From Isoalcanivorax pacificus W11-5 (GTDB lineage Bacteria > Pseudomonadota > Gammaproteobacteria > Pseudomonadales > Alcanivoracaceae): a DNA stretch of 64,000 bases. A model generated the notes under the pieces. That model was not told where the DNA came from. It worked only from the letters and a program-made list of their open reading frames with translations, and made no database searches. The DNA lies in the NCBI RefSeq assembly GCF_000299335.2, contig NZ_CP004387.1, positions 2,232,001-2,296,000 on the forward strand, written 5' to 3'. Below, one piece after another: positions 29,629 through 45,907 of this stretch (its first letter is position 1; the number at the start of each line of letters is the position of its first letter). The position numbers were made by a program, and so were the translations under genes.

Positions 29629-30237
29629 ATGAGCGAGAAGCTTACAGTTCGTCAGCAACAGGTACTCGACTGCATCCGTCAGTTCCAGAACGACACCGGC
29701 ATGGCACCGACCCGGGCCGAGCTGGCCGAGCTGATGGGGTTCCAGTCCAAGAACGCCGCATCGGACCACCTGCGTGCACTGGAGCGCAAGGGCTGTGTCC
29801 GGCTGCACAATGATCGCTCGCGCGGCATCCAGCTGCTGAACGCCGCCCTGTGGCCGGATGATGAACTGCCGGTGATCGGCCGCGTCGCCGCCGGGGTGCC
29901 GATCGAGGCAGTGGAAAACGTCGAACGCAGCGTGCCGGTACCGCAGGGCCTGTTCCGGCAGCGCCCCACCTATCTGCTGCGCGTCCAGGGCGACAGCATG
30001 AAGGATGCCGGCATTTTTGACGGTGACCTGATTGCCGTGCGCAAGACCAGCGTCGCCCGGTCTGGCCAGATCGTGGTCGCCCGGCTGGACGACGACGTGA
30101 CCGTGAAAACCCTCAAGCTGAGCCCGCAGGGCGCCACCCTGATGCCCGCCAACGAGGACTACACGCCGATTCGTGTGTCACCGGATCAACTGGTCATCGA
30201 GGGCGTGTTCGTCGGCCTGATCCGCGATGCGGTGTAA
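29629..30237 (+). CDS. lexA: SOS repressor LexA
   Basis: LexA represses DNA-damage genes and self-cleaves on RecA activation. The 202-residue protein has an N-terminal winged HTH (APTRAELAELMGFQSKNAASDHLRALERKG). The Ala88-Gly89 cleavage bond lies in RVAAGVP, and the catalytic dyad is Ser123 (GDSM) and Lys160 (VTVKTL). Two SOS boxes precede it. Its 3' end overlaps the DUF1499 gene by 11 bases, so the downstream genes are likely part of the LexA-controlled transcript. Confidence 0.97.
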   Translation: MSEKLTVRQQQVLDCIRQFQNDTGMAPTRAELAELMGFQSKNAASDHLRALERKGCVRLHNDRSRGIQLLNAALWPDDELPVIGRVAAGVPIEAVENVERSVPVPQGLFRQRPTYLLRVQGDSMKDAGIFDGDLIAVRKTSVARSGQIVVARLDDDVTVKTLKLSPQGATLMPANEDYTPIRVSPDQLVIEGVFVGLIRDAV

Positions 30238-30700
30238 GGCACGGCTGGCTGTCCTTCTGCTCTGCACGGCCTCGTTAGCGAAGGCCGTGGCAGAGCCGCT
30301 GCTCCCACCCTGCCCTGAGTCCCCCAATTGTGTGTCCAGCCTCGCCGACAATGCGCGGCATGCTGTGCCTGCCCTGCAGGCCGGCGACACCATGGAAAGC
30401 GCCAGAACAGCACTGGTCACCATGCTGGACAACCTGCCCCGCGTCACCTGGACACAGCCGGATGAACGCAGGCTGCACGCGACATTCACGACCCGCCTGC
30501 TGCGCTTTACCGATGACGTGGACTTTTATCTGCACGACGATGGCCGGGTTGAGGTACGCTCGGCCTCGCGTGTGGGATATTACGACTTCGGCACCAATCG
30601 ACGCCGGGTCGATACTCTGCGTGACACCCTGCGTGATACCCTGCGTGACGCCCTGCACGACGCCCTGCACACACAGACCGGACCCACACACGCCCCATGA
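30227..30700 (+). CDS. DUF1499 family exported protein
   Basis: This 157-residue protein has a signal peptide (cleavage near AVAEP). It shows the DUF1499 elements SPNCVSS, VDFYLHDDG and VRSASRVGYYDFGTNRRRVD. The C-terminus ends in a low-complexity tail of repeated four-residue units (TLRD, TLRD, ALHD), encoded by a 12-bp tandem repeat. It overlaps lexA by 11 bp and tatD by 4 bp (ATGA). In Pseudomonas this position after lexA holds the division inhibitor sulA; this protein is unrelated to SulA. Function unknown. Confidence 0.8.
   Translation: MRCKARLAVLLLCTASLAKAVAEPLLPPCPESPNCVSSLADNARHAVPALQAGDTMESARTALVTMLDNLPRVTWTQPDERRLHATFTTRLLRFTDDVDFYLHDDGRVEVRSASRVGYYDFGTNRRRVDTLRDTLRDTLRDALHDALHTQTGPTHAP
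30611..30670 (+). repeat. 12-bp tandem repeat, five units, in the DUF1499 gene
   Basis: Five consecutive 12-bp units of the form GAYRCYCTGCRY run in frame at the 3' end of the gene. Each encodes four residues (DTLR or DALH), so the unit count can change without a frameshift. Confidence 0.85.
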
Positions 30701-34418: not shown

Positions 34419-35429
34419 TCAAGCCACCTTCTGCATCGCCCGGACCGATTCCGCCACCAGCGCCGGCCCACGGTAGATCAGGCCGGTGTAGACCTGTACC
34501 AGCGGGGCACCCAGACGCTGTTTGTCTGCCGCGTCCTCGCCGGTCAGGATGCCACCCACCCCGATGACCGGCATGCGCCCGTCCAGTGCCTTCACCATGC
34601 TCGACAGCGCCTGATCCGCCAGGGGCTTCAGCGGCTGCCCGCTGAGGCCGCCCTGTTCGGTGCCGTGCGGCAGCGCTTCCACGTGCGGGCGCGTGATCGT
34701 GGTATTGCCCACCGTGACGCCATCAATGCCATGGCGTACCAGGGCTTCCGCCATCACGCCCATCGCCTCGGCATCGTTGTCCGGTGCGATCTTGATCACC
34801 AGCGGCACCCGGCGGCCGGCACGCTGGTCCAGTGCGGTCTGGCGTTCACGCAGGGTGCCCAGCAACGACTCCAGCGCGTCACCGTGCTGCAGCGTACGCA
34901 GGCCCGGCGTGTTCGGCGAGGACACGTTCACCACCACATAGCTGGCCTCGGTATGCACCCGGTCCAGGCAGTACAGGTAGTCATCCACCGCCTGTTCTAC
35001 CGGCGTGCTGGCGTTCTTGCCGATATTGATACCCAGGACACCCTCGAAGCGGCGCGTGGCGACGGCCTTGACCAGATAGTCCACACCCCGGTTGTTGAAC
35101 CCCATGCGGTTGATCAGGGCCGAGGCCGCCGGCAGCCGGAACATGCGTGGTTTGGGATTGCCCGGTTGCGGACGCGGCGTCACCGTGCCCACTTCGACAA
35201 ACCCGAAGCCCAGGCTGGCCAGGCCGTCCACGCAGTCACCGTTCTTGTCCAGGCCCGCCGCAAGCCCCACCGGATTCGGAAACCGCAGCCCCATCACCTC
35301 CACCGGCATCGCCGGCACGCTGACCGGGTATAATCGGCCCAGCCCCTTGCGCAGCATCGCCAGCGTCAGTTCGTGCACAGTCTCTTCGGGCAGGGAAAAC
35401 AGCAACGGGCGGGCGATCTGGTACAGCAT
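34419..35429 (-). CDS. pyrD: Dihydroorotate dehydrogenase (quinone)
   Basis: This class 2, membrane-associated enzyme oxidises dihydroorotate to orotate with quinone in pyrimidine synthesis. The 336-residue protein has an N-terminal membrane-binding helix, the FMN-binding NPVGLAAGLDKNG, the catalytic Ser region NVSSPNTPGLR, and VIKIAPD and GVGGI for phosphate binding. It converges on rmf. Confidence 0.96.
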   Translation of the reverse strand: MLYQIARPLLFSLPEETVHELTLAMLRKGLGRLYPVSVPAMPVEVMGLRFPNPVGLAAGLDKNGDCVDGLASLGFGFVEVGTVTPRPQPGNPKPRMFRLPAASALINRMGFNNRGVDYLVKAVATRRFEGVLGINIGKNASTPVEQAVDDYLYCLDRVHTEASYVVVNVSSPNTPGLRTLQHGDALESLLGTLRERQTALDQRAGRRVPLVIKIAPDNDAEAMGVMAEALVRHGIDGVTVGNTTITRPHVEALPHGTEQGGLSGQPLKPLADQALSSMVKALDGRMPVIGVGGILTGEDAADKQRLGAPLVQVYTGLIYRGPALVAESVRAMQKVA

Positions 35430-35525
35430 GAGAGGCTCCGTGGTGGCGAATGGCGCGCATTATATACAACGGCGCGCCGGGGCGCCGTAGCTGCGGGTGG
35501 CGAGGCATTGCGGGCAGGAGAAAGC

Positions 35526-35553
35526 AGAAGGGCCGGCATGAGCCGGCCCTTCT
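35526..35553 (-). terminator. Strong hairpin terminator after the RND gene
   Basis: A perfect 12-bp inverted repeat (AGAAGGGCCGGC / GCCGGCCCTTCT, 4-base loop) lies 17 bp beyond the stop of the RND gene. The run after it on the minus strand is T-rich but interrupted. It separates the transport cluster from the pyrD promoter region. Confidence 0.7.
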
Positions 35554-35569
35554 GTGGGGTGCGGAGCGG

Positions 35570-37942
35570 TTAGCTGGCCTTTTGCTCGTGTTTGAGCAGG
35601 AAGCGGGCCAGTGCCGGCAGCAGCCAGAGCGCACCGATCATGTTCCAGAGGAACATGAAGGTGAGCAGAATGCCCATGTCGGCCTGGAACTTGATCGACG
35701 AGAACACCCAGAACACCACACCCACCGCCAATGCCAGGCCAGTGAATGCAACGGCCTTGCCGGTGGTTTTCAGCGTTTCGGAATAGGCTTCTTCCAGCGG
35801 CAGACCCGCCTTCAGATACTCTTCCAGCTTGCTGTAGATATAGATGCCGTAATCCACACCAATGCCGACACCCAGCGCGATGACCGGCAATGTCGCGACT
35901 TTCACGCCGATGCCCATCCAGGTCATCAGCGCCTGGCACAGCACTGACGTCAGGCCCAGCGGGATCAGGATACAGAGCACCGCCCGGATCGAGCGGAAGG
36001 CAATCAGACACAGCACCGCCACCACGGCGTACACCAGCGCCAGCATCGGGTACTGACTGGCATTGATGGTCTGGTTGGTCGCTGCTTCGATACCGGCGTT
36101 GCCGGAAGCCAGCTTGAATTCGATCACGTCCGGGTTATTGTGCGCTTGCGCGTACTTCGCCACAGCGTCTGTGACATTGTTCAGCGTCGCTGCGCGATGG
36201 TCGTCCAGGAACACATAGATCGGCGTCACTGAACAGTCCAGGTTATAGAGCGAATCCGGCATGAACATCATCGCGTTGTTCAGCGCGTACTGATCGCGGG
36301 ATATGGTCGCCCACTTCAGGTTGCCTTCGTTGGTATTGGCACTGATCAGTTTCGCAGTGGACGCGATGGATGCCACGTCCTGCACGCCCGGCACGTTCAG
36401 CAGTGCCCACGACAGGCTGTCGATCTGCTGCATCGCGTCATAGCTGTTGCAGGCTTCCAGCGGTGTCTTGCCGATCACCACCAGCACGTCGGCACTGACG
36501 CTGTAGTTCGATACCAGCATGTTGATGTCGTGGTTGTACTGATAACGACGCTCCGGAATATAACCGCGCGGACACTCCTGCTCCTGACACGGGTCTGGCC
36601 ACAGCTCAGGCGCACCACGGTCCAGATCCCCGACCTGGATATCCTTGGCGACCCACAGCCCGCCGGCGTAGCCCAGCGCTGCCACCACGATCGACGCAGC
36701 CGCCCAGCCCGGCCGGGCAAAGCGCGAGAAGAATGACGCCAGTGGATGCGAGCCGCCGCGCTTCTTGCGGATCTTCGCTATCGCAGACTCGCCTACGCCG
36801 GTGTATGACAGCAGCACCGGCACGATCACCAGGTTGGTGAGGATGATCACCGCCACGCCCACACTGGCAGCAATCGCCAGCTCACGAATCACGCCCACAT
36901 CGATGATGTACAGCGTAACGAAACCAATCCCATCACTGACCAGCGCCACGACGCCGGGCACTGCCAGCACGGAGAAGGTCTTCATTGCCGCGCTGAGCTT
37001 GTCGAGCCCGTCGGCGGCGTTGTTGGCCAGCGCATTGACCATCTGGACGCCATGGCTCACCGCGATGGCGAAGACCAGGAACGGCACCAGCATCGAATAA
37101 GGGTCGATGGTGAAACCGAGCATGGAAACAACGCCCAGTTGCCAGATCACTGCGACAAATGAACACAGCGTCACCACCAGCGAACTGCGCAGGCTGCGGG
37201 TGTCAATCAACAGCAGCAGCGCTGTCAGGCCCAGCGTCACGAAGAAGAACATCGCGACTTCGGCTGCCGCCGCCATCACATCGCCGGCCATCTTGGCGGC
37301 GCCGACAATATGGATACGCAGGTCCGGGTACTTTTCCTGGTAGCGGCTACGGATGTCATCCAGCGCAGCGGACAACTGCGGGATATCGACAGTCGACCCT
37401 TCCGAAAGCACATCCAGCAGATTGGCGTGCACGATGGAAGAACGGAAATCATCCGCCACCAGGCTGCCAACATGCCGGGAACGCAGCACGTTGGTGCGCA
37501 GGTCTTCCAGGCTCTCGGCGGAACCATCGTAGGCCGGCGGAATGATCTCACCACCTTCGAAACCGTCCTCGGTCACCTCGGCCCAGCGGACGTTCGGCGT
37601 CCACAGCGAACTGATCTTGGACGGATCCACGCCATCCAGGGAGAACACTTCATCCGTGATCTCGCTGAGCGCCTGCATGTAGGTCTCGTTGAAGATGTCA
37701 TCGTGGGTGACATCGGCCACGATCACCCGCACATCATTGCCAAGCGAGACATCGTTGCGGTGTTCCAGGAAGTTCTGAATGTACGGATGGCTGATCGGCA
37801 CCATCTTGCGCACATCGGTATTGAGCTTGATATTGAGCGCCTGCATGCCCAGAAACACGGTCAGCGCCACGAAAACCAGCAGCAGCACTGGCCGCGCGCC
37901 AAACACGACCCGGGCCACGGCGGATGAAAATTTACCTGTCAT
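35570..37942 (-). CDS. MMPL/RND-superfamily transporter
   Basis: This 790-residue inner-membrane protein has the two-repeat RND layout: TM1, a periplasmic loop of about 190 residues, five helices, then TM7, a second loop and five more helices. The second half contains the MMPL signature GVGIGVDYGIYIYS. The second periplasmic loop has several cysteines (DPCQEQEC, CNSYD, LDC), suggesting disulfides. It resembles hydrophobe/lipid exporters rather than drug-efflux AcrB. It lies 17 bp after the YCF48 gene and downstream of DUF1302/DUF1329, a combination that recurs in lipid-using proteobacteria. The cargo is unknown. Confidence 0.85.
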   Translation of the reverse strand: MTGKFSSAVARVVFGARPVLLLVFVALTVFLGMQALNIKLNTDVRKMVPISHPYIQNFLEHRNDVSLGNDVRVIVADVTHDDIFNETYMQALSEITDEVFSLDGVDPSKISSLWTPNVRWAEVTEDGFEGGEIIPPAYDGSAESLEDLRTNVLRSRHVGSLVADDFRSSIVHANLLDVLSEGSTVDIPQLSAALDDIRSRYQEKYPDLRIHIVGAAKMAGDVMAAAAEVAMFFFVTLGLTALLLLIDTRSLRSSLVVTLCSFVAVIWQLGVVSMLGFTIDPYSMLVPFLVFAIAVSHGVQMVNALANNAADGLDKLSAAMKTFSVLAVPGVVALVSDGIGFVTLYIIDVGVIRELAIAASVGVAVIILTNLVIVPVLLSYTGVGESAIAKIRKKRGGSHPLASFFSRFARPGWAAASIVVAALGYAGGLWVAKDIQVGDLDRGAPELWPDPCQEQECPRGYIPERRYQYNHDINMLVSNYSVSADVLVVIGKTPLEACNSYDAMQQIDSLSWALLNVPGVQDVASIASTAKLISANTNEGNLKWATISRDQYALNNAMMFMPDSLYNLDCSVTPIYVFLDDHRAATLNNVTDAVAKYAQAHNNPDVIEFKLASGNAGIEAATNQTINASQYPMLALVYAVVAVLCLIAFRSIRAVLCILIPLGLTSVLCQALMTWMGIGVKVATLPVIALGVGIGVDYGIYIYSKLEEYLKAGLPLEEAYSETLKTTGKAVAFTGLALAVGVVFWVFSSIKFQADMGILLTFMFLWNMIGALWLLPALARFLLKHEQKAS

Positions 37943-37959
37943 GATGATCGCTCCCGCCG

Positions 37960-39030
37960 TTATCGGATGTTATCGAAAATACGCACGCCGCTGGCGCCTG
38001 CGGTGAGTACACCGCCGCCCTTGCGCGGCAATACCGACGAGATGGTCTGCCGACCCTGCACGAACTGTACCGACAGCATGCTGCCCTGATCATGGCTGGT
38101 CAGCACCGCGCCAGCGTTACCCACCATCACCAGGGTGCCATCGCTGAGGACGGTACCGGCATTGACACCACTGCGCAGGCCACTGCTGACTTTTTGCCAG
38201 GTTTCACCCCGGTCACGGCTGAGCCAGACATTGCCCTGCAGGCCGTGCGCCAGCAATGTGCGCACGTCCGAACTGACCGTACCGAAGAAAGTACCGTGGT
38301 AAGGGCTATCCAGTTTTGTCCAGGTCTCCCCCCGGTCGCGGGAGCGATACAGCGTGCCTTTTTCTCCGGAAATGAACAGCGTGTCCGGCTCGCCATTGAG
38401 CGGCGCGATGGAGTAGAAATGCCAGCCGTCGGCATTGTCCATGTCGCGGTTCGCCTGTTGCCAGCTATCGCCACCATCACGGGTTTCGACCATGTAACCG
38501 TAACCACCGACCGCGATGGCATGGCGGGTGGAATCACACCAGACATCGAGCAGTGGTGCACCGGAGGTATCGACCATGGCAGCACCTTCATCGGCGTACG
38601 GATCATCGCTGTAGAGGTCGTCGCTGTAGATATCGTCGTTGTACAGCTCTTCGTCGGAGAGCGCTTCATCGTCCAGCGCCTCGGCACCGTCATCCAGCGC
38701 GTCGCTGTACTGGAGCGTCCAGGTGGTGCCGCCATCGCGCGTGCCCAGCACAACGGCATCATGCCCTACTGCCCAGCCATGCTCCGCATCGGCGAAGCAG
38801 ACCGCGGTCAGCAACACGCTGGTGGGCGTTTCCGCCTGCCGCCAGTGCTGGCCTTCGTCATCAGAATAAATAATGTGTCCACGGTCACCGACCGCAACCA
38901 CCCTGTCCCCTGCCCGGGCCAGATCCACATAGATACTGCCACGCAGCAGCGGATCGGTGGCGGGGACCACCCCGTTTGCCTGCACGACTGCAGAGATGGC
39001 CAACAGGCCAAGCGCAACTGTTTTTTTCAT
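37960..39030 (-). CDS. YCF48/BNR-repeat periplasmic beta-propeller protein
   Basis: This 356-residue protein has a signal peptide (cleavage near VQA-NGV). It then has repeated BNR/YCF48 blades of the type SDDEGQHW, TRDGGTTW, TRDGGDSWQ, SRDRGETWTKL and SRDRGETWQKV. Between blades there is a very acidic, Asp/Tyr/Ser-rich insert at about residues 110-149 with the repeated unit YSDD. In plants and cyanobacteria YCF48 is a photosystem II assembly factor; bacterial homologues next to RND pumps are probably accessory periplasmic proteins. It is transcribed with the RND gene. Confidence 0.8.
   Translation of the reverse strand: MKKTVALGLLAISAVVQANGVVPATDPLLRGSIYVDLARAGDRVVAVGDRGHIIYSDDEGQHWRQAETPTSVLLTAVCFADAEHGWAVGHDAVVLGTRDGGTTWTLQYSDALDDGAEALDDEALSDEELYNDDIYSDDLYSDDPYADEGAAMVDTSGAPLLDVWCDSTRHAIAVGGYGYMVETRDGGDSWQQANRDMDNADGWHFYSIAPLNGEPDTLFISGEKGTLYRSRDRGETWTKLDSPYHGTFFGTVSSDVRTLLAHGLQGNVWLSRDRGETWQKVSSGLRSGVNAGTVLSDGTLVMVGNAGAVLTSHDQGSMLSVQFVQGRQTISSVLPRKGGGVLTAGASGVRIFDNIR
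38584..38703 (-). repeat. Acidic Asp/Tyr-rich low-complexity insert
   Basis: This segment encodes about 40 residues in which Asp, Glu, Ser and Tyr dominate, with near-repeats LYNDD, IYSDD, LYSDD and PYADE. It interrupts the beta-propeller. It resembles calcium-binding acidic loops, but no canonical motif is complete. Confidence 0.6.
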
Positions 39031-39146
39031 TGGAACCTACTCGGCTAAAGCTGCCAGTCCTGAATTCACCCTTAATGAAAACCCCCGCTGCTTCCTTGAG
39101 CCGAAGCTGCTACGGCAACGGGACAGGAAAACAACAGGGGCTTGTC

Positions 39147-39172
39147 AAAACGGGCACGCTCACACGTGCCCG
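39147..39172 (-). terminator. Rho-independent terminator after DUF1329 gene
   Basis: CGGGCACG / CGTGCCCG with a 6-base loop is followed on the minus strand by TTTTGACA. It lies 19 bp beyond the DUF1329 stop, so DUF1302-DUF1329 and YCF48-RND are likely two transcripts or are linked only by read-through. Confidence 0.75.
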
Positions 39173-39190
39173 CGATCCGTGTCGGGACAA

Positions 39191-40594
39191 TTACCGGCCG
39201 CGACGTCGCAGCGCGGCGGGGTGGAAATACTGGTCCCCCGGTGCCGGCTGAGTGAAATCGAGGCTGGACGGCTCTTCGTTAGACAGCAACTGCACGTGGT
39301 AACGACGGGCGCGCAGGTCGTGGAATGTATCCAGCGCGGTCCACTGAGTCGGCACCTCGTAGTAGTTCTTGATGTACGCCAGGCTGACACGCCACAGGTC
39401 GCCACGGCTGTCGTACTGGTCGATGGCCGCGATCTGCCAGGAGTCCGCATCAATGTAGAAGGTACGGCGCGCATAGATGTGACGCTGGCCTTCTTTCAAT
39501 GTGGCTTCCACAACCCAGACGCGGTGCAGTTCCCACCGGGTGTACTCGGGGTTGAGGTGGCCCGGCAGCAGCAGGTCGCTGTATTTCACGCTCGGGTCGG
39601 CCAGACGGTAGTTGTTGTACGGAATGTACATTTCCACCGGCTGCTCGTTCACCATGCGCCAGTTGTAGCGATCCGGCGAGCCGTTGTACATGTCGGTATC
39701 ATCGGCAGTACGCAGACCGTCCGAAGCGGCGATCGGTGTGTCATAAGCCAGGTTCGGCGACCGCTGTACGCGACGGGTACCGGCGTTGTAGCCCCAGGCC
39801 TGACGCGGCAGTTTCTGCTGGTCAAGCGTCTCGTGGACCAGCACCGCGCCACCGGCCAGACGTGCCGGCGCCATGGTAAAGGACAGATAGTAGAAGATGA
39901 TGTTGTCGAGCTTTTCTTCCGACAGCTGCGGATCGTAGTAACGGAAATACACTTCCTGCTGCGACGTCACCAGCGAGTAGGAGCCGTTACGCTGCACCGC
40001 CACTTCAGAAGCACGACGCACCACGTAGATACCGCGCCAGCGCAGGATGTGGTTCCAGATCGCCTGCATCGCCTTCTGTTCGTTGTTGCCGCTGAGGATC
40101 GGGAACGGAATGCCACCGAAGGCACCGGTGACGCCCGTCGCGCCGAGGTTGGCGTTGGTGGCGTTCTTCTTGGTGTTGTCATACACCCATTGCGGCGCAG
40201 AAGTGGTACGGCGGCTCGGGTAGACATTGACCTTGAAGGTATCCGGATAGGTTTCCATCATCGCCTTCACACCGGTCGGCAGCTTGGCCGCGTACTGACC
40301 GACATTGTTGGCATCGATGGTCAGCAGCACGTTGTCACTGGCGAACGGGTCCGGGTGATGCTGGCCGGGACGGGTGTAGGAAGAAGGAACGTCGCTCTTG
40401 TCGAAACCGGTCCAGGCGGGAATGCCTTCCGGCGAAGACGGATCCTTGCCATTACCCTGCTTGACGGCCCCGAAAGGCGTCAGGCTGTTTCCCAGCTGTG
40501 CGGCCTCCTGGGCCGACACAGAGGCATGGGAAACCGAAGCCGCCGCCAGCGTCAGAGCCAGAGCGCTTCCCATGAAAGTGAGTTTTTTCAGCAT
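39191..40594 (-). CDS. DUF1329 family periplasmic (LolA/LolB-like) protein
   Basis: This 467-residue protein has a signal peptide (cleavage near SHA-SVS). The family core is present: NNVGQYAAKLPTG, YPSRRTTSAPQWVYDNTKKN, WRMVNEQPVEMYIPYNNYRL and VWVVEATLKEGQRHIYARRTFYIDAD. DUF1329 proteins are related to the lipoprotein-carrier LolA/LolB fold, so a role in ferrying a lipid-like molecule across the periplasm is a reasonable inference. It is paired with the DUF1302 gene upstream, with a hairpin between them. A GGAGAG ribosome site sets the start. Confidence 0.87.
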   Translation of the reverse strand: MLKKLTFMGSALALTLAAASVSHASVSAQEAAQLGNSLTPFGAVKQGNGKDPSSPEGIPAWTGFDKSDVPSSYTRPGQHHPDPFASDNVLLTIDANNVGQYAAKLPTGVKAMMETYPDTFKVNVYPSRRTTSAPQWVYDNTKKNATNANLGATGVTGAFGGIPFPILSGNNEQKAMQAIWNHILRWRGIYVVRRASEVAVQRNGSYSLVTSQQEVYFRYYDPQLSEEKLDNIIFYYLSFTMAPARLAGGAVLVHETLDQQKLPRQAWGYNAGTRRVQRSPNLAYDTPIAASDGLRTADDTDMYNGSPDRYNWRMVNEQPVEMYIPYNNYRLADPSVKYSDLLLPGHLNPEYTRWELHRVWVVEATLKEGQRHIYARRTFYIDADSWQIAAIDQYDSRGDLWRVSLAYIKNYYEVPTQWTALDTFHDLRARRYHVQLLSNEEPSSLDFTQPAPGDQYFHPAALRRRGR

Positions 40595-40621
40595 GTTTTT
40601 ACTCTCCGTCAGGATTCTGTC

Positions 40622-40646
40622 GCCGGGGCGCAGTGCTGCCCCCGGC
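40622..40646. promoter_or_regulatory. Intercistronic hairpin between DUF1302 and DUF1329 genes
   Basis: GCCGGGG ... CCCCGGC with an inner GCAG/CTGC pairing forms a strong stem in the 61-bp gap. There is no T-run after it on the minus strand. It may adjust the relative amounts of the two products through mRNA stability. Confidence 0.5.
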
Positions 40647-40655
40647 TTATTCTTT

Positions 40656-42662
40656 TTAGAATGAGTACTTCACGGATACAGAAGCGTTGTCACGGTCGTT
40701 CAGCTTGTTGCTGTAGCCCGCGCCCCAGAAACTGGTGGCCTGCAGGCCGAGTTCCAGGTTGTTCTGGTAGACAAAGTTCAGACCCAGCGTCGCCGCCTTG
40801 CGGTCTTCCATGAAGTTGCCACCGATCACGGAGTTACCTTCAACATCGTGGGCGATGGTCAGGCTGGGGTTAAAGGATACCCCGGCAAAAATGTCGTTAT
40901 AGTTGGCACGGACGGCTGCACGATAACCCCAGGAGAATTCATCCAGATAGGTTTTGTAGACATCACCCGGGCTCTGGATAGCGGCCTCGCCATACTGGAT
41001 CGCCGCCGTAGAGTTGTAGTACAGCTTGTTGCCGTTCGCGTCGCGGCTTTTCAGGCCACCGGCATGTTCAGCACCCAGTTCCAGCAGGAACAGCATGCCG
41101 TCGGTGCCCCACATCGGGCCGAAGCTGAAAATGCTGACCAGCGAGGCGTTGGTCATTTTCGCTTCGTCATAGAAGTAGTAGTACTGGCCCGGATTCACCG
41201 AACTGTTGGGGTCCAGGCAGCTGCCTCCCACCTTGGCTCGTACACAGTGATTGGTGAAGTCACCGACGGTCGGCGCCACACCCGAGAGCCCCGCCTGCGC
41301 AGCAATGCCGGCCAGGTTCTGGATCAGGTTGTCGCCCACTTCGTTGATGATCGGCTGCTTCGGCCGGTAGGCAATTTCACCGGACAGCGCCATGGTGCCG
41401 ATGTTCGAGGAGAAGCTCAGGCCGAACATGTCGATATCTTCGCCATACACCATGTTGTACTCGGTGTTGTCGATCATGGCTGCGGCAGCCACTGCACCGC
41501 CGCCCACGCTCAGCATGTTCAGGCGAGCACCCACGGTCGGCAGCTTGGCATGCGTGCGGGTGTAGTACACACCGAACTCAGTGCCGTTGAGAGAATCCGC
41601 GAAGTATCGTGCCGCCAGACCGAACTGGCCCTGGTCATCGGCTTCCATGTCACGGCCACGGCTCACCGTTACCTGGGTGGCTTCGTATTCATAGCCCGGG
41701 CCATAGGTGGCATTGGTGTAGGCTGCGAAGCCATCGGCAATCGCCGGCACAGCGGCGGAGGCGGCGATCAGGCGGCCATCCACGATCACGTTGTTGGCCC
41801 CTTTGCCCGGGAACGCATCGTGGGTCGAGTAAAAGGTGCCCACCGGCGCATCTTCGGTGTTCTTCCACTCGTACTGGTAGAAGGCTTCCGTTGTGAGGTT
41901 ATTGGTCAGGCCGTAGGAGAAATACACCGAGCCGAGCGGCAGCAGTGCTTCCTTGATTTCCGCACCCGGCTGACGCAGCGCGGCCAGATCAATGTAGTTG
42001 GCAGAGTTGATGCCGTTCTGGATGAACAGCGCTTCACCCCAGTTGATCACCTGGCGGCCGGCGCGTACCAGCAGCGGGCGATCAGCGACGAAGAACTCGC
42101 CCCATACATAAGCATCAAGCATCCGCGAGCGCTGCCCCGCGTTGCGTCGTGCCGCACGGGAGAAGCGGTCGCCGGTGCCATTGTTGGCATAGTCGGAATA
42201 CAAAGCGTAACGGTTGCTGCCGCCGACACTCGGATACGGCGCGCTGCTGACCAGCGCACCGCCATCATGGCCCTCGTCCATGATGACATGGTCATAGAAG
42301 GTCGTGCCGCGCATGAACACGCCATAGCTGCTGCCGAAATCAAGCGCGAGTTCCGTCGTCGCCTTGCCCACCAGCGACGCCAGACCGGTGTCATAATTGT
42401 TGTTGGCGTCGTTCTTGTTGATCTGTGTGCTGTAGCCGCGCGTGGACATGTAGACGATGTCGTCGGTCGCAGCCAGCATGCGATCACGGCCTTCAGTACG
42501 CCACAGCGCACCTGCGGATAACGTGGTATCGAGACGACCGGAGATATTGGGGTTATCGAATTGCAGTTCGAAGGCATGGGCCGGTAAACCCAGTGCACTG
42601 GCGAGCGACGCACTGGCGACTGCCACCGCCAGACGTTTCTTCAGCATGGTCTTGTTTTTCAT
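40656..42662 (-). CDS. DUF1302 family outer-membrane protein
   Basis: This 668-residue protein has a signal peptide (cleavage near AHA-FEL) and an alternating-residue pattern throughout. It ends in ASVSVKYSF, a terminal Phe typical of outer-membrane beta-barrels. Family elements include NPNISGRLDTTLSAG, RAGRQVINWGEALFIQNGIN and SYGLTNNLTTEAFYQYEW. DUF1302 members are thought to be large barrels tied to hydrophobic-substrate use, but no activity is established. A GGAG ribosome site precedes ATG 42662. Confidence 0.87.
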   Translation of the reverse strand: MKNKTMLKKRLAVAVASASLASALGLPAHAFELQFDNPNISGRLDTTLSAGALWRTEGRDRMLAATDDIVYMSTRGYSTQINKNDANNNYDTGLASLVGKATTELALDFGSSYGVFMRGTTFYDHVIMDEGHDGGALVSSAPYPSVGGSNRYALYSDYANNGTGDRFSRAARRNAGQRSRMLDAYVWGEFFVADRPLLVRAGRQVINWGEALFIQNGINSANYIDLAALRQPGAEIKEALLPLGSVYFSYGLTNNLTTEAFYQYEWKNTEDAPVGTFYSTHDAFPGKGANNVIVDGRLIAASAAVPAIADGFAAYTNATYGPGYEYEATQVTVSRGRDMEADDQGQFGLAARYFADSLNGTEFGVYYTRTHAKLPTVGARLNMLSVGGGAVAAAAMIDNTEYNMVYGEDIDMFGLSFSSNIGTMALSGEIAYRPKQPIINEVGDNLIQNLAGIAAQAGLSGVAPTVGDFTNHCVRAKVGGSCLDPNSSVNPGQYYYFYDEAKMTNASLVSIFSFGPMWGTDGMLFLLELGAEHAGGLKSRDANGNKLYYNSTAAIQYGEAAIQSPGDVYKTYLDEFSWGYRAAVRANYNDIFAGVSFNPSLTIAHDVEGNSVIGGNFMEDRKAATLGLNFVYQNNLELGLQATSFWGAGYSNKLNDRDNASVSVKYSF

Positions 42663-42701: not shown

Positions 42702-42949
42702 TTGTTATTGTTGCAACCTGGCGGTGGGCACCAGGCAGCTCTCCCTTTGTACCAGACTGACCACAGGGGTTGTCTAGGCGTATTTTCGTATATTCAAAAC
42801 CAAATCAGCCGGATACGCCACCGTAAAACGTGACCTTCGGGTCTGGCTTGCTGAGGGATGGCGTCGACGGGTCGGCCTGGGGGCAAAAGAGATCCCCGAT
42901 CAGGCAGGTGAGTTCATCACCGGGGAACAAGGAGAATGGCCGGCACCGC
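42702..42949. other. Intergenic region upstream of the DUF1302 gene
   Basis: This part of the 328-bp gap between pepN and the DUF1302 gene is AT-rich near 42780-42800 (TATTTTCGTATATTC) and then GC-rich. It probably holds the transport-cluster promoter, but I see no convincing pair of boxes. No ORF is supported. Confidence 0.35.
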
Positions 42950-42983
42950 CCTGCCCCGCATGGCAGCGACCATGCGGGGCAGG
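42950..42983 (-). terminator. Long hairpin after pepN
   Basis: A perfect 14-bp inverted repeat (CCTGCCCCGCATGG / CCATGCGGGGCAGG, 6-base loop) lies 8 bp beyond the pepN stop. It lacks a T-run, so it may act as a mRNA 3' stabiliser or a weak terminator. Confidence 0.55.
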
Positions 42984-42990
42984 CAGCGTT

Positions 42991-45615
42991 TCAGCCAGCG
43001 CTGGCGAGGATGCGCTCAAGCATCTCGCGCAGATTGGCCGAGCGTGAACGGGACAGCACATCCCGCAGCGCAGCGGCCAGGGCCTCGCGACGTGCATCCG
43101 GCAGGCGCGGCAGGCGTGCGCAGGCCCCCGCCATGCGGGCGGCGATCTGCGGGTTGACCTCATCCAGGCGCGCCAGCGCCTCGGCATACAGGCGGTAACC
43201 TTCGCCGGAGGCAGCATGGAACGCCGTCGGGTTGCCGTTGGCGAAACTGCCCAGCAACCCGCGCACCCGGTTCGGCACACGCCAGTCAAAGTCCGCGTGC
43301 GCGAGCAGCGCACGCACCTGTGCCAGGGTCTGTTCGCCGGGCACAGTGGCCTGTACCGCGAACCACTGGTCCATCACCAGTGCCTCGTCGTGCCACCGGG
43401 CAGCAAAGTCAGCCAGCGCCTGTGCGGCGCCCGGCAGGCGGTAATGCACCAGCAGCCGCAGTGCGCCAAGTTGATCGGTCATGTTGTCCGCATCGCGGCA
43501 CAACGCCTCCAGGTGCGAGGCGACCCGCTCATCGGCGGCAGCGGCCAGATAGGCCAGCGCCCGGTGTCGCAGGCTGCGCTTGCCAATATCGGCGGCGCTC
43601 GGCCGGTATGGCCCGGGGGTCAGGCAGGCCTGGCCTGCCTGCCACCACTGCCTTGCCAGTTGCCGACCCAGCTCAGCCTGCAAGGCACCGCGTGCAGCGT
43701 GTATCCGGTCCGGTTCCAGCACATCCAGGCGGTCACCGATGGCAACCTCGCCTGGCAGCGTCAATAACAGCGCCGCTTCGGCCGGGTCATCCATGGCACG
43801 CGCCAGCACCTGCTCCAGCGCCGGCCGCAGCGCCGCCGCTTCCGCCTCTGCGGCGGACGGATCGGCCAGCAGCCGCGTCACAGCAGCGTGATACAGCCGC
43901 TGCGCGGCATCCCAGCGGCAGTACCCGTCGCTGTCGTGGGCCAGCAGGAAGTGCAGCTGTGCCGGCGAGAAGTCGTAGCGCAGTTCCACCGGCGCGGAGA
44001 ATCCACGCAGCAGGGAGGGCACTGGCGCCTGCGTGCCCGGCACGGCGAACGCGAAGGTCTGTTCGGCCTCGGTCAGCACCAGCACGGTTTCCGTGTTGCC
44101 GTCGGCGTCCAGCGGCAAGGCGGCGCCGTCCGCGCCCAGCAGCGCCAGCTTGACCGGAATCATCAGCGGCAGCTTGTCCGGCTGGCCCGGCGTCGGTGGC
44201 GTGGACTGGCGCAGCGTCAGCCGGTACTCGCCATCGGCAAACGTATCGCTGGCTTCCAGCCGGGGCGTACCGGCCTGGCTGTACCAGCGGCGGAACTGCG
44301 TCAGGTCGATACCGCCGGCTTCAGCCATGCAATCGACAAAGTCATCGGTGGTCACCGCCTGGCCATCGAAGCGGCTGAAATACAGGTCGGTCCCGGCACG
44401 GAAGCGCTCCGGCCCCAGCAGGCCATGCTGCATGCGCACCAGTTCTGCGCCCTTCTCGTAGATGGTGACGGTGTAGAAGTTGTCGATCTTCTGATATTCC
44501 GCCGGGCGCACCGGGTGCGCCATCGGTCCCTGGTCCTCAGGAAACTGCACCGTGCGCAGCATGTCCACGTCTTCCACCCGTTTCACGGCGATGGAGTTCA
44601 TGTCGGCAGAGAAACTCTGGTCGCGGAACACCGTGAAGCCTTCTTTCAGGCTGAGCTGGAACCAGTCGCGGCAGGTCACCCGGTTGCCGGACCAGTTGTG
44701 GAAGTATTCGTGTGCCACCACCGCCTCGACGCGCTGGAAGCCGGCATCGGTGGTGGTCTTCGGGTGCGCCAGCACGCACGCGGTGTTGAAGATGTTCAGG
44801 CCCTTGTTTTCCATGGCGCCCATGTTGAAGTGGCTGACGGCGACGATCATGTAGATGCCGAGGTCGTATTCCAGCCCGTAGGTCTGCTCATCCCAGGCCA
44901 TCGCCGCCTTCAGCGACGCCATGGCATGGTCGAGCTTGTCCAGATCGCGCTCTTCGGCATAGATCTGCAGGGTAATCTCGCGGCCGGAGCCGGTCCGGTA
45001 ACGCTCTTCCAGGCAGGCCAGGTCGCCGGCCACCAGGGCAAACAGGTAACAGGGTTTCGGGAACGGGTCTTCCCAGGTCACCCAGTGGCGGGCGCCCTCC
45101 TCGCCCCGCGCCACCGGGTTGCCATTCGACAGCAGCACCGGGAAACGCACCTTGTCGGCACGCACGGTGGTACTGAAGCGGCTCAGCACGTCCGGGCGAT
45201 CCGGGAAGAACGTGATGCGTCGAAACCCTTCCGCTTCGCACTGGGTACAGAACATGCCACGCGACACGTAGAGCCCTTCCAGCGCTGTGTTGCGCTGCGG
45301 CTCGATGATGACCTGCGTGGCCAGCGTGAAGGTATCCGGCATGCCCCGCAGCACCAGCTGCTCGCCGTCATAGCGCCAGGCCTCTTCCGCCAGCGGCTCA
45401 CCGTCCACCGACAGGGCTTCCAGCGTCAGGCCGACACCGTCGAGCACGCAGTCGGCACCGGCCGGCGCATCCGGGTGCCGGCGCAGCGCCAGCGTGGCAT
45501 TGACCCGGGTGTGCTCATCAAACAGGTCCACGTCCAGGTGCACCTGGCCCACCAGATAAGCCGGCACCTGATAATCCACCAGCCGGATCGGGGTGCCCGG
45601 TTGTCCATCACGCAT
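42991..45615 (-). CDS. pepN: Aminopeptidase N
   Basis: This M1 zinc aminopeptidase removes N-terminal residues from peptides in the cytoplasm. The 874-residue protein (E. coli 870) has the GAMEN motif MGAMENKGLNIF and the zinc site VVAHEYFHNW followed by LKEGFTVF with the third ligand Glu. The C-terminal helical domain is complete. The start ATG 45615 has a strong AAGGAG ribosome site; the longer frame to 45720 lies in the upstream gene. It overlaps the DUF1315 gene by 8 bases. Confidence 0.96.
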   Translation of the reverse strand: MRDGQPGTPIRLVDYQVPAYLVGQVHLDVDLFDEHTRVNATLALRRHPDAPAGADCVLDGVGLTLEALSVDGEPLAEEAWRYDGEQLVLRGMPDTFTLATQVIIEPQRNTALEGLYVSRGMFCTQCEAEGFRRITFFPDRPDVLSRFSTTVRADKVRFPVLLSNGNPVARGEEGARHWVTWEDPFPKPCYLFALVAGDLACLEERYRTGSGREITLQIYAEERDLDKLDHAMASLKAAMAWDEQTYGLEYDLGIYMIVAVSHFNMGAMENKGLNIFNTACVLAHPKTTTDAGFQRVEAVVAHEYFHNWSGNRVTCRDWFQLSLKEGFTVFRDQSFSADMNSIAVKRVEDVDMLRTVQFPEDQGPMAHPVRPAEYQKIDNFYTVTIYEKGAELVRMQHGLLGPERFRAGTDLYFSRFDGQAVTTDDFVDCMAEAGGIDLTQFRRWYSQAGTPRLEASDTFADGEYRLTLRQSTPPTPGQPDKLPLMIPVKLALLGADGAALPLDADGNTETVLVLTEAEQTFAFAVPGTQAPVPSLLRGFSAPVELRYDFSPAQLHFLLAHDSDGYCRWDAAQRLYHAAVTRLLADPSAAEAEAAALRPALEQVLARAMDDPAEAALLLTLPGEVAIGDRLDVLEPDRIHAARGALQAELGRQLARQWWQAGQACLTPGPYRPSAADIGKRSLRHRALAYLAAAADERVASHLEALCRDADNMTDQLGALRLLVHYRLPGAAQALADFAARWHDEALVMDQWFAVQATVPGEQTLAQVRALLAHADFDWRVPNRVRGLLGSFANGNPTAFHAASGEGYRLYAEALARLDEVNPQIAARMAGACARLPRLPDARREALAAALRDVLSRSRSANLREMLERILASAG

Positions 45616-45907
45616 GGTCGTCTCCTTTCGCCGGGCGCAGGCTGACCGGCTGTTCCGGGTGGTCATGGCTGTCGCAATCCGGCTGCGGCACATGGCCGGT
45701 GCGCTCATGCTCGGGGACATTGTTGCGGATTTCCCAGGCCAGCACCGCCTGAAGGCTCAGTTCACGCTGCTCCGGGGTCAGCCGGCGGCCATCGGGCCAG
45801 CGGCCGGTTTCCACGGCCCGGCGCATGTTGTGCCAGACCTCCATACTCATGCCGTCGATCATGGCAGCGAAACTTTGCGGGGAATGTTCTTGCGTCATCA
45901 ATGGCAT
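45608..45907 (-). CDS. DUF1315 (YeaC-like) protein
   Basis: This 99-residue small protein has the DUF1315 core FAAMIDGMSMEVWHNMRRAVETGRWPDG followed by LTPEQRE, and an acidic/His-rich tail. Function is unknown; the gene commonly lies next to pepN in pseudomonads. ATG codons at 45907 and 45898 are both possible, and neither has a good ribosome site. Its stop overlaps pepN, indicating coupling. Confidence 0.8.
   Translation of the reverse strand: MPLMTQEHSPQSFAAMIDGMSMEVWHNMRRAVETGRWPDGRRLTPEQRELSLQAVLAWEIRNNVPEHERTGHVPQPDCDSHDHPEQPVSLRPAKGDDHA

Follow-up and report, generated by a model that had tools for sequence, protein, structure and literature searches.

A DUF1302-DUF1329-YCF48-MMPL gene block of the AmeABCD type in Isoalcanivorax pacificus, a candidate route for water-insoluble molecules across the cell envelope

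To our knowledge, the import of water-insoluble carbon across the bacterial periplasm is a largely open subject. Here we analyse a block of four genes in a 64,000-nt stretch of DNA from Isoalcanivorax pacificus W11-5 (the window, to which all positions refer; loci and genomes of the survey are labelled L### and G###), encoding a predicted outer-membrane barrel, a predicted periplasmic carrier, a propeller and a permease of the resistance-nodulation-division (RND) type. The four genes probably build one machine, a member of the known but little-understood AmeABCD type described in Castellaniella in 2018. We propose, and give it an even chance, that machines of this type carry water-insoluble molecules from the cell surface to the inner membrane or back, mainly inward, and that fatty acids freed by a surface lipase are probably among the cargo in the Alcanivorax group. 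The proposal is based on gene order, co-occurrence, predicted folds, linkage to lipase and ligase genes, and published mutant phenotypes of relatives. The parts of the machine are as follows.

40656..42662, minus strand: DUF1302 predicted outer-membrane barrel (AmeA type), 668 aa, PF06980 E 1.1e-153
39191..40594, minus strand: DUF1329 predicted periplasmic carrier (AmeB type), 467 aa, PF07044 E 2.3e-150
37960..39030, minus strand: YCF48-type propeller (AmeC / PhnL type), 356 aa, PF14870 E 3.2e-21
38585..38700, minus strand: long insert of the YCF48 protein, rich in Asp, Glu and Tyr, with LYxDD/YSDD repeats read in the sequence
35570..37942, minus strand: MMPL/HAE3-like RND permease (AmeD type), 790 aa, PF03176 E 6.8e-29

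An earlier note on this DNA had described a barrel, a LolA-like protein, a propeller and an RND permease in a one-strand block, and all four are present at these positions on the minus strand, separated by gaps of 61, 160 and 17 nt. As that note had proposed, co-occurrence was surveyed, and the families were found together far beyond chance. In 143 genomes drawn across the Gammaproteobacteria, with cut-offs of our own choice (above 100 bits for DUF1302 and DUF1329, E 1e-20 for MMPL, E 1e-8 for YCF48), DUF1329 was held by 22 genomes, YCF48 by the same 22, MMPL by 23 and DUF1302 by 24. With genome sets that nearly coincide (Fisher 2e-26 to 6e-21), a chance neighbourhood was rejected, and the refuting outcome that the earlier note had named for co-occurrence did not arise. 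A single DUF1329 genome showed no DUF1302 match (G008, 75% complete), and three genomes had DUF1302 barely above 100 bits with DUF1329 absent at the cut-off. At the looser E 0.001, DUF1329 matches 63 of the 143 genomes, mostly as weak matches to LolA-like proteins. The ordered quartet is present in 16 of the 22 DUF1329 genomes, namely 14 counted, the window, and L013, which carries an extra MMPL gene on the opposite strand. The ordered quartet accounts for 46 of 80 named loci found via DUF1329; another 12 show DUF1329-YCF48-MMPL with no DUF1302 immediately ahead, 16 have the DUF1302-DUF1329 pair alone (L072 and L105 run to the end of their contigs) and 6 are other or cut; these ordered-quartet counts overlook a gene placed between the four, as in L056. 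Co-occurrence and gene order thus indicate that the four genes belong together beyond chance. The host genome, one contig of 4.17 Mb, holds one DUF1329 gene and two DUF1302 genes. The second DUF1302 gene (L004 7643-9865) is solitary, with an AraC-type regulator near and a C13-peptidase/MORN protein following on the same strand; it was not counted as a part of the system, since no DUF1329, YCF48 or MMPL match was found in the surrounding 18 kb.

The earlier note had also taken the set for undescribed, and this was wrong. AmeABCD of Castellaniella defragrans (PMC6394551) consists of these four families, arranged alike, and full or partial reports exist elsewhere (PMC6449761, PMC3958437, PMC13101534 and PMC10866462, each an excerpt; 'excerpt' marks sources cited from part of their text). 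AmeABCD of C. defragrans 65Phen matches the window set in its order DUF1302, DUF1329, YCF48/COG4447 and HAE3 RND; it lies within a monoterpene island and is triggered by monoterpenes, whereas the window set is flanked by pepN and pyrD and has no catabolic genes as direct neighbours. The Castellaniella deletion mutant grew poorly on apolar monoterpenes and normally on acetate and perillyl compounds (PMC6394551). In Pseudomonas putida, PP_0765, PP_0766, PP_2018 and PP_2019 were reported essential on Tween 20 and a transport system was proposed; an AlphaFold contact map places PP_2018 strongly on PP_2019, and PP_0766 weakly on PP_2019 and PP_0765 (PMC10866462, excerpt). As far as the excerpt tells, this set has a DUF1302 protein, a DUF1329 protein, a periplasmic protein and an efflux permease like the window, in two loci there and in one block here.

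The phn cluster of Delftia places YCF48, DUF1302 and DUF1329 in a hydrocarbon cluster and, in contrast to a lipid route, ties them to vesicles and nanopods and to phenanthrene (PMC3110197, PMC3958437, excerpts). Its phnL (YCF48) mutant showed a lag of 48 h on phenanthrene versus 6 h and was unimpaired on pyruvate; it leaks metabolites, as does an S-layer mutant with intact phnL (PMC3958437, excerpt). Even though PMC13101534 cites the Delftia mutant as a DUF1329 deletion, PMC3958437 itself names phnL with a YCF48 domain (both excerpts). A 'nanopod' cluster of a benzene-degrading consortium was highly expressed during benzene degradation and was proposed for benzene movement, the direction being left open (PMC13101534, excerpt). 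This cluster shares DUF1329, YCF48, MMPL and a porin-like protein with the window set; unlike the latter, the excerpt places it in an anaerobe, on a genomic island and with extra genes, e.g. a universal stress protein, in between. The quartet belongs to the predicted AphR, AphS and AphT regulons, and an esterase/lipase of another family, COG657, is encoded in Burkholderia sp. 383 by a neighbouring operon that shares the regulon (PMC6449761, excerpt). A DUF1302-DUF1329 pair stands in a phenol-hydroxylase cluster (PMC7012976, excerpt).

Concerning the proteins themselves, the predictions agree with the earlier suggestion of one part for each envelope layer. The DUF1302 protein models as a porin-like barrel (a sequence search of the PDB with it gave no match), and residues 167-466 of the DUF1329 protein model as a LolA fold; propeller and permease complete the predicted set. 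Judged by eye, the DUF1302, DUF1329 and YCF48 proteins have signal-peptide-like starts and the DUF1302 protein ends in VKYSF. In the permease, D697-Y698 and S296-H297 are invariant in 25 of 25 aligned sequences. Its best NCBIfam match is TIGR00921 HAE3, the COG1033 group (E 6e-43), but at 146.9 bits against a cut-off of 351.9. The hopanoid transporter HpnN (TIGR03480, 72.1 of 751.85 bits; NF052374, 21 of 1100 bits) and the sterol transporter BstA (NF045600, 42.5 of 1400 bits) were rejected as identities. Tripartite HAE1 pumps like AcrAB-TolC have a membrane fusion protein and a TolC-like channel in the operon, whereas Pfam at E 0.01 detected neither among the four proteins of the window. Inserts similar to that of the YCF48 protein occur in L055, L056 and L069, and a 30-residue stretch with at least 12 acidic residues was found in 13 of 36 pepN-linked versus 3 of 48 other full-cassette homologues.

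A first clue to the cargo comes from lipase genes. A VolA/Pla-1-type lipase lies between DUF1329 and YCF48 in L165, L166 and L171 (in L056 recognised by frame and motif only); in L055, L069 and L170 it immediately precedes pepN. That the block of three related genera contains this lipase, and that a fourth genus has it next to pepN, is a new observation. Neighbour clustering covered 107 classified loci, 23 of 130 being left out as 'other', and placed the lipase at 8 of the 107; the count is a lower bound, because clustering missed L056. Among the 143 genomes the lipase was present at E 1e-20 in 20, of which 12 also hold a DUF1302 match, and in 6 of these 12 it lies within 5 kb of a DUF1302 gene (0.13 expected; P 5e-9, to be read as a guide only). 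The six comprise quartets in G056, G093 and G126 and DUF1302 genes without an adjacent quartet in G025, G038 and G112. The GxSxG motif was present in 14 of 14 lipases read and a lipobox pattern matched 7 of 13 starts; all five lipases scanned were above the PF12262 cut-off and below that of TIGR03502. A literature search of titles and abstract openings found no paper on the set in Alcanivorax or on a VolA-type lipase linked to it.

A second clue, likewise a new observation, is a FadD-type AMP-binding ligase at loci outside the pepN context. This ligase cluster occurs at 12 of 70 such loci, on the same strand and within 330 nt in 10, as compared to 0.07 ligase-adjacent loci of 70 expected from 3.2 AMP-binding genes per Mb in ten genomes. 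One of the 12 is on the other strand and two are more than 2 kb away; one was scanned against NCBIfam and reached 858.7 of 884 bits for FadD. A thiolase cluster was found at nine loci, one of them pepN-linked. DUF1329 is also carried by 41 plasmids. Of the ten that were read, eight carry the complete set in one place, seven of them in the standard order, and two carry the pair only. Their neighbours include a ring-hydroxylating dioxygenase cluster (L052), aromatic-type catabolic genes (L051, L054), acyl-CoA and CoA-transferase genes (L045, L050) and a fatty acid-CoA ligase (L046), while no clear hydrocarbon pathway was seen among the neighbours in L047, L048, L049 and L053.

The earlier idea of a hydrophobe or lipid route is kept as the likely job, and the machine may work as follows. 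A surface lipase or an oil film would release the cargo, and the acyl chain or hydrocarbon would pass the outer membrane via the porin-like DUF1302 barrel. The LolA-fold DUF1329 carrier would shield it across the periplasm, and the YCF48 propeller may dock this carrier on the MMPL permease. Using the proton gradient, the permease would then insert the cargo into the inner membrane, where it would be available to FadD and beta-oxidation or to oxygenases. The cargo in I. pacificus, the docking role, the proton coupling and the direction are what we infer rather than observe. An inward direction is favoured because of the growth defects on sole carbon sources, the dependence on Tween, the lipase in the block and the porin-like barrel.

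Several points weigh against this proposal. The VolA-like lipase of the host genome (56% identical) lies 62 kb away, outside the window, the same-genus blocks L157-L159 hold no lipase, and only the 8 of 107 classified loci, as a lower bound, had one by clustering. Related loci were counted in the lipase and ligase tallies, so that P values are too small. In 46 Alcanivoracaceae genomes the permease was detected at E 1e-100 in 32 and a window-type DUF1329 above 470 bits in 33; the genome with DUF1329 and no permease, G186, is an incomplete metagenome-assembled genome (MAG) whose contig ends in DUF1302 (L167). In one sister genus, neither was found in any of the 13 genomes at these thresholds, and the absence of the permease indicates that this type of system is dispensable. 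Four of the 13 have a divergent DUF1329 (404-408 bits), and in L161, L162 and L163 of this genus a lone divergent DUF1329 stands between pepN and pyrD, with DUF1302, YCF48 and MMPL missing, which a strict four-part unit does not predict. Three further genomes of the genus have a distant DUF1329, and in L164, the one examined, it clusters with distant MMPL and YCF48 genes. The Castellaniella data are mixed as well, since an earlier ameB transposon mutant was poor on perillic acid too, unlike the deletion (PMC6394551). At more than 5 mM limonene with acetate the deletion mutant grew worse, and under carbonyl cyanide m-chlorophenylhydrazone (CCCP) it took up slightly more Nile Red (PMC6394551). 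These limonene and Nile Red results, together with the habits of RND pumps, favour an outward direction.

They are also what gives weight to efflux, in which the four parts would form an export channel expelling membrane-damaging hydrophobes. RND pumps are commonly exporters. Efflux is what the authors proposed for AmeABCD, and an RND inhibitor raised the Nile Red load of the wild type (PMC6394551); the aromatic-regulon paper names a possible role of the quartet in dealing with toxic aromatics and solvent stress (PMC6449761, excerpt). However, the kinetics of Nile Red efflux were almost identical in mutant and wild type (PMC6394551), the P. putida set is needed on Tween 20 (PMC10866462, excerpt), an export pump would hardly be expected to have a lipase gene within its block, the four proteins include no membrane fusion protein or TolC-like channel, and the barrel resembles porins. 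We consider efflux rather improbable, yet a serious rival.

Export of envelope lipid that swells the outer membrane and thereby drives vesicle formation would fit the Delftia phnL mutant M6, in which extracellular protein was down 96% and vesicle production greatly diminished (PMC3958437, excerpt), and the DUF1302 and DUF1329 proteins found in nanopods (PMC3110197, excerpt). The core copy at pepN would also suit a housekeeping lipid role. Yet this concerns one strain on phenanthrene, where the effect could be an indirect one, M6 retained some vesicle production and short nanopods (PMC3958437, excerpt), and the catabolic neighbours are left unexplained; we hold this explanation to be unlikely. 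Least probable is a route in which the barrel and the LolA-like DUF1329 deliver the lipase itself to the surface of the cell: DUF1329 models with the fold of the lipoprotein carrier LolA, and lipobox matches and lipases in some blocks would agree with it, but clustering placed no lipase at 99 of the 107 classified loci, and in Castellaniella the set operates together with terpene genes (PMC6394551).

If inward transport is correct, it unites the terpene, phenanthrene, benzene, Tween and aromatics reports, which name one machine differently, and gives a cargo lead that is testable in a standard marine oil degrader. If the machine serves efflux only, it nonetheless represents a widespread, under-named pump with a bearing on solvent tolerance. 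New are the lipase and ligase linkage and the layout described below, which make cargo and direction testable.

This layout concerns the barrel-carrier pair, which would act as a port, and the YCF48-MMPL pair, which would act as an engine. Genomes of 9 of the 16 pair-only loci were searched, and an AmeD-type permease was found in all nine, each time next to a YCF48 gene; in seven, pepN lies within the same 14-kb stretch. In these seven, the whole quartet is present at loci L148 and L152-L154, YCF48-MMPL only at L151, and DUF1329-YCF48-MMPL at L155-L156. With the engine at pepN in these seven, the barrel-carrier pair is there an extra or has split off. P. putida resembles this, as its two loci share the Tween 20 phenotype (PMC10866462, excerpt). 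In three of seven genomes of the window's genus (L157, L158, L159) the order is pepN-[quartet]-[second DUF1302-DUF1329]-pyrD. Genome G190, whose permease is 98% identical to that of the window, has a second cassette (L160) in the order YCF48-MMPL-DUF1302-DUF1329, which adjoins an acyl-CoA dehydrogenase and two CoA-transferases. Since three of seven genomes have a tandem second port and nine orphan-port genomes all hold the engine elsewhere, ports may be added or moved. We tentatively suggest a proton-driven inward RND machine in which acyl chains from a surface lipase, or hydrocarbons, might pass an exchangeable barrel-carrier port to a shared YCF48-MMPL engine, with genomes adding or moving ports per substrate. 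The hand-off from NPC2 to NPC1 offers a comparison for such an inward RND machine. One engine with many ports was rejected as a universal bacterial rule, as permeases outnumber barrel genes in G091 (6:5) and G120 (3:2). Near the pairs of Pseudomonas (L068, L070, L074 and similar) an FGGY kinase was seen at 8 loci and an FAD enzyme resembling glycerol-3-phosphate dehydrogenase at 6; no claim of a glycerolipid or sugar-alcohol pathway is made, as no curated cut-off was reached.

A possible sister system was found via weak DUF1302 and DUF1329 matches. Of the 14 loci L025-L038, 10 show an RND match and none a YCF48 match; in L029 and L032, triads of RND, LolA_like (PF17131) and a DUF1302-like barrel were checked by Pfam. 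The triads cover the same three layers as the quartet and differ in having no YCF48 and a shorter carrier (270-276 aa). The quartet hence looks like one branch of a wider theme of RND, carrier and barrel.

The window copy belongs to the AmeABCD type as an old member, chromosomal and inherited vertically. Among named proteins, its DUF1329 protein is closest to those of a Pseudomonadales MAG (77%), Alcanivorax sp. DG881 (76%) and Alcanivorax sp. 1008 (70%), which places the organism in the Alcanivorax group. An upstream pepN on the same strand was found at 34 of the 80 named loci, at 32 of them within 660 nt, and 14 of the 34 also have pyrD in the downstream stretch. In P. putida, PP_2018 is presumably of the YCF48 type and PP_2017 presumably pepN. 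In a tree of 102 permeases made by a quick method, with AmeD itself and other RND families left out, the pepN label needs 4 changes as compared to 33.4 in shuffles; 2 of 45 rows so labelled (L149, L150) showed no pepN in the stretch examined. Group 1, with Alcanivorax, Pseudomonas, Hahella and Oceanospirillaceae-type genera, includes the window copy and is pepN-linked in 33 of 40 rows, and group 2, with Alteromonadales and Rheinheimera-type genera, in 12 of 13. Seven of the eight plasmid rows fall within group 1.

The surroundings of the block comprise the following features.

35525..35554, minus strand: terminator-like hairpin with a 13-pair stem, 3' of the MMPL gene
42944..42988, minus strand: hairpin at the pepN end, the upstream border of the block
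42991..45720, minus strand: pepN (PF17432/PF01433), conserved upstream neighbour, context outside the machine
34419..35429, minus strand: pyrD (PF01180), conserved downstream neighbour, context

The strong hairpin that the earlier note had placed at the end of the block was recovered, with a weak T tail; the 66-nt stretch that holds it folds at -31 kcal/mol (z -5.45). The stretch at the pepN end folds at -40.2 kcal/mol (z -4.32). A strong hairpin after pepN and another after MMPL suggest that the block is its own transcription unit; a search by consensus gave no sigma-70-like promoter. Elsewhere in the window, positions 30227-30700 encode a small exported-looking protein whose C-terminus consists of repeated RDTL/RDAL units. 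Outside the window, at about 1161000-1190500 of the host genome (G000:C1), frames as long as 3983 aa with several AMP-binding domains point to a nonribosomal peptide cluster.

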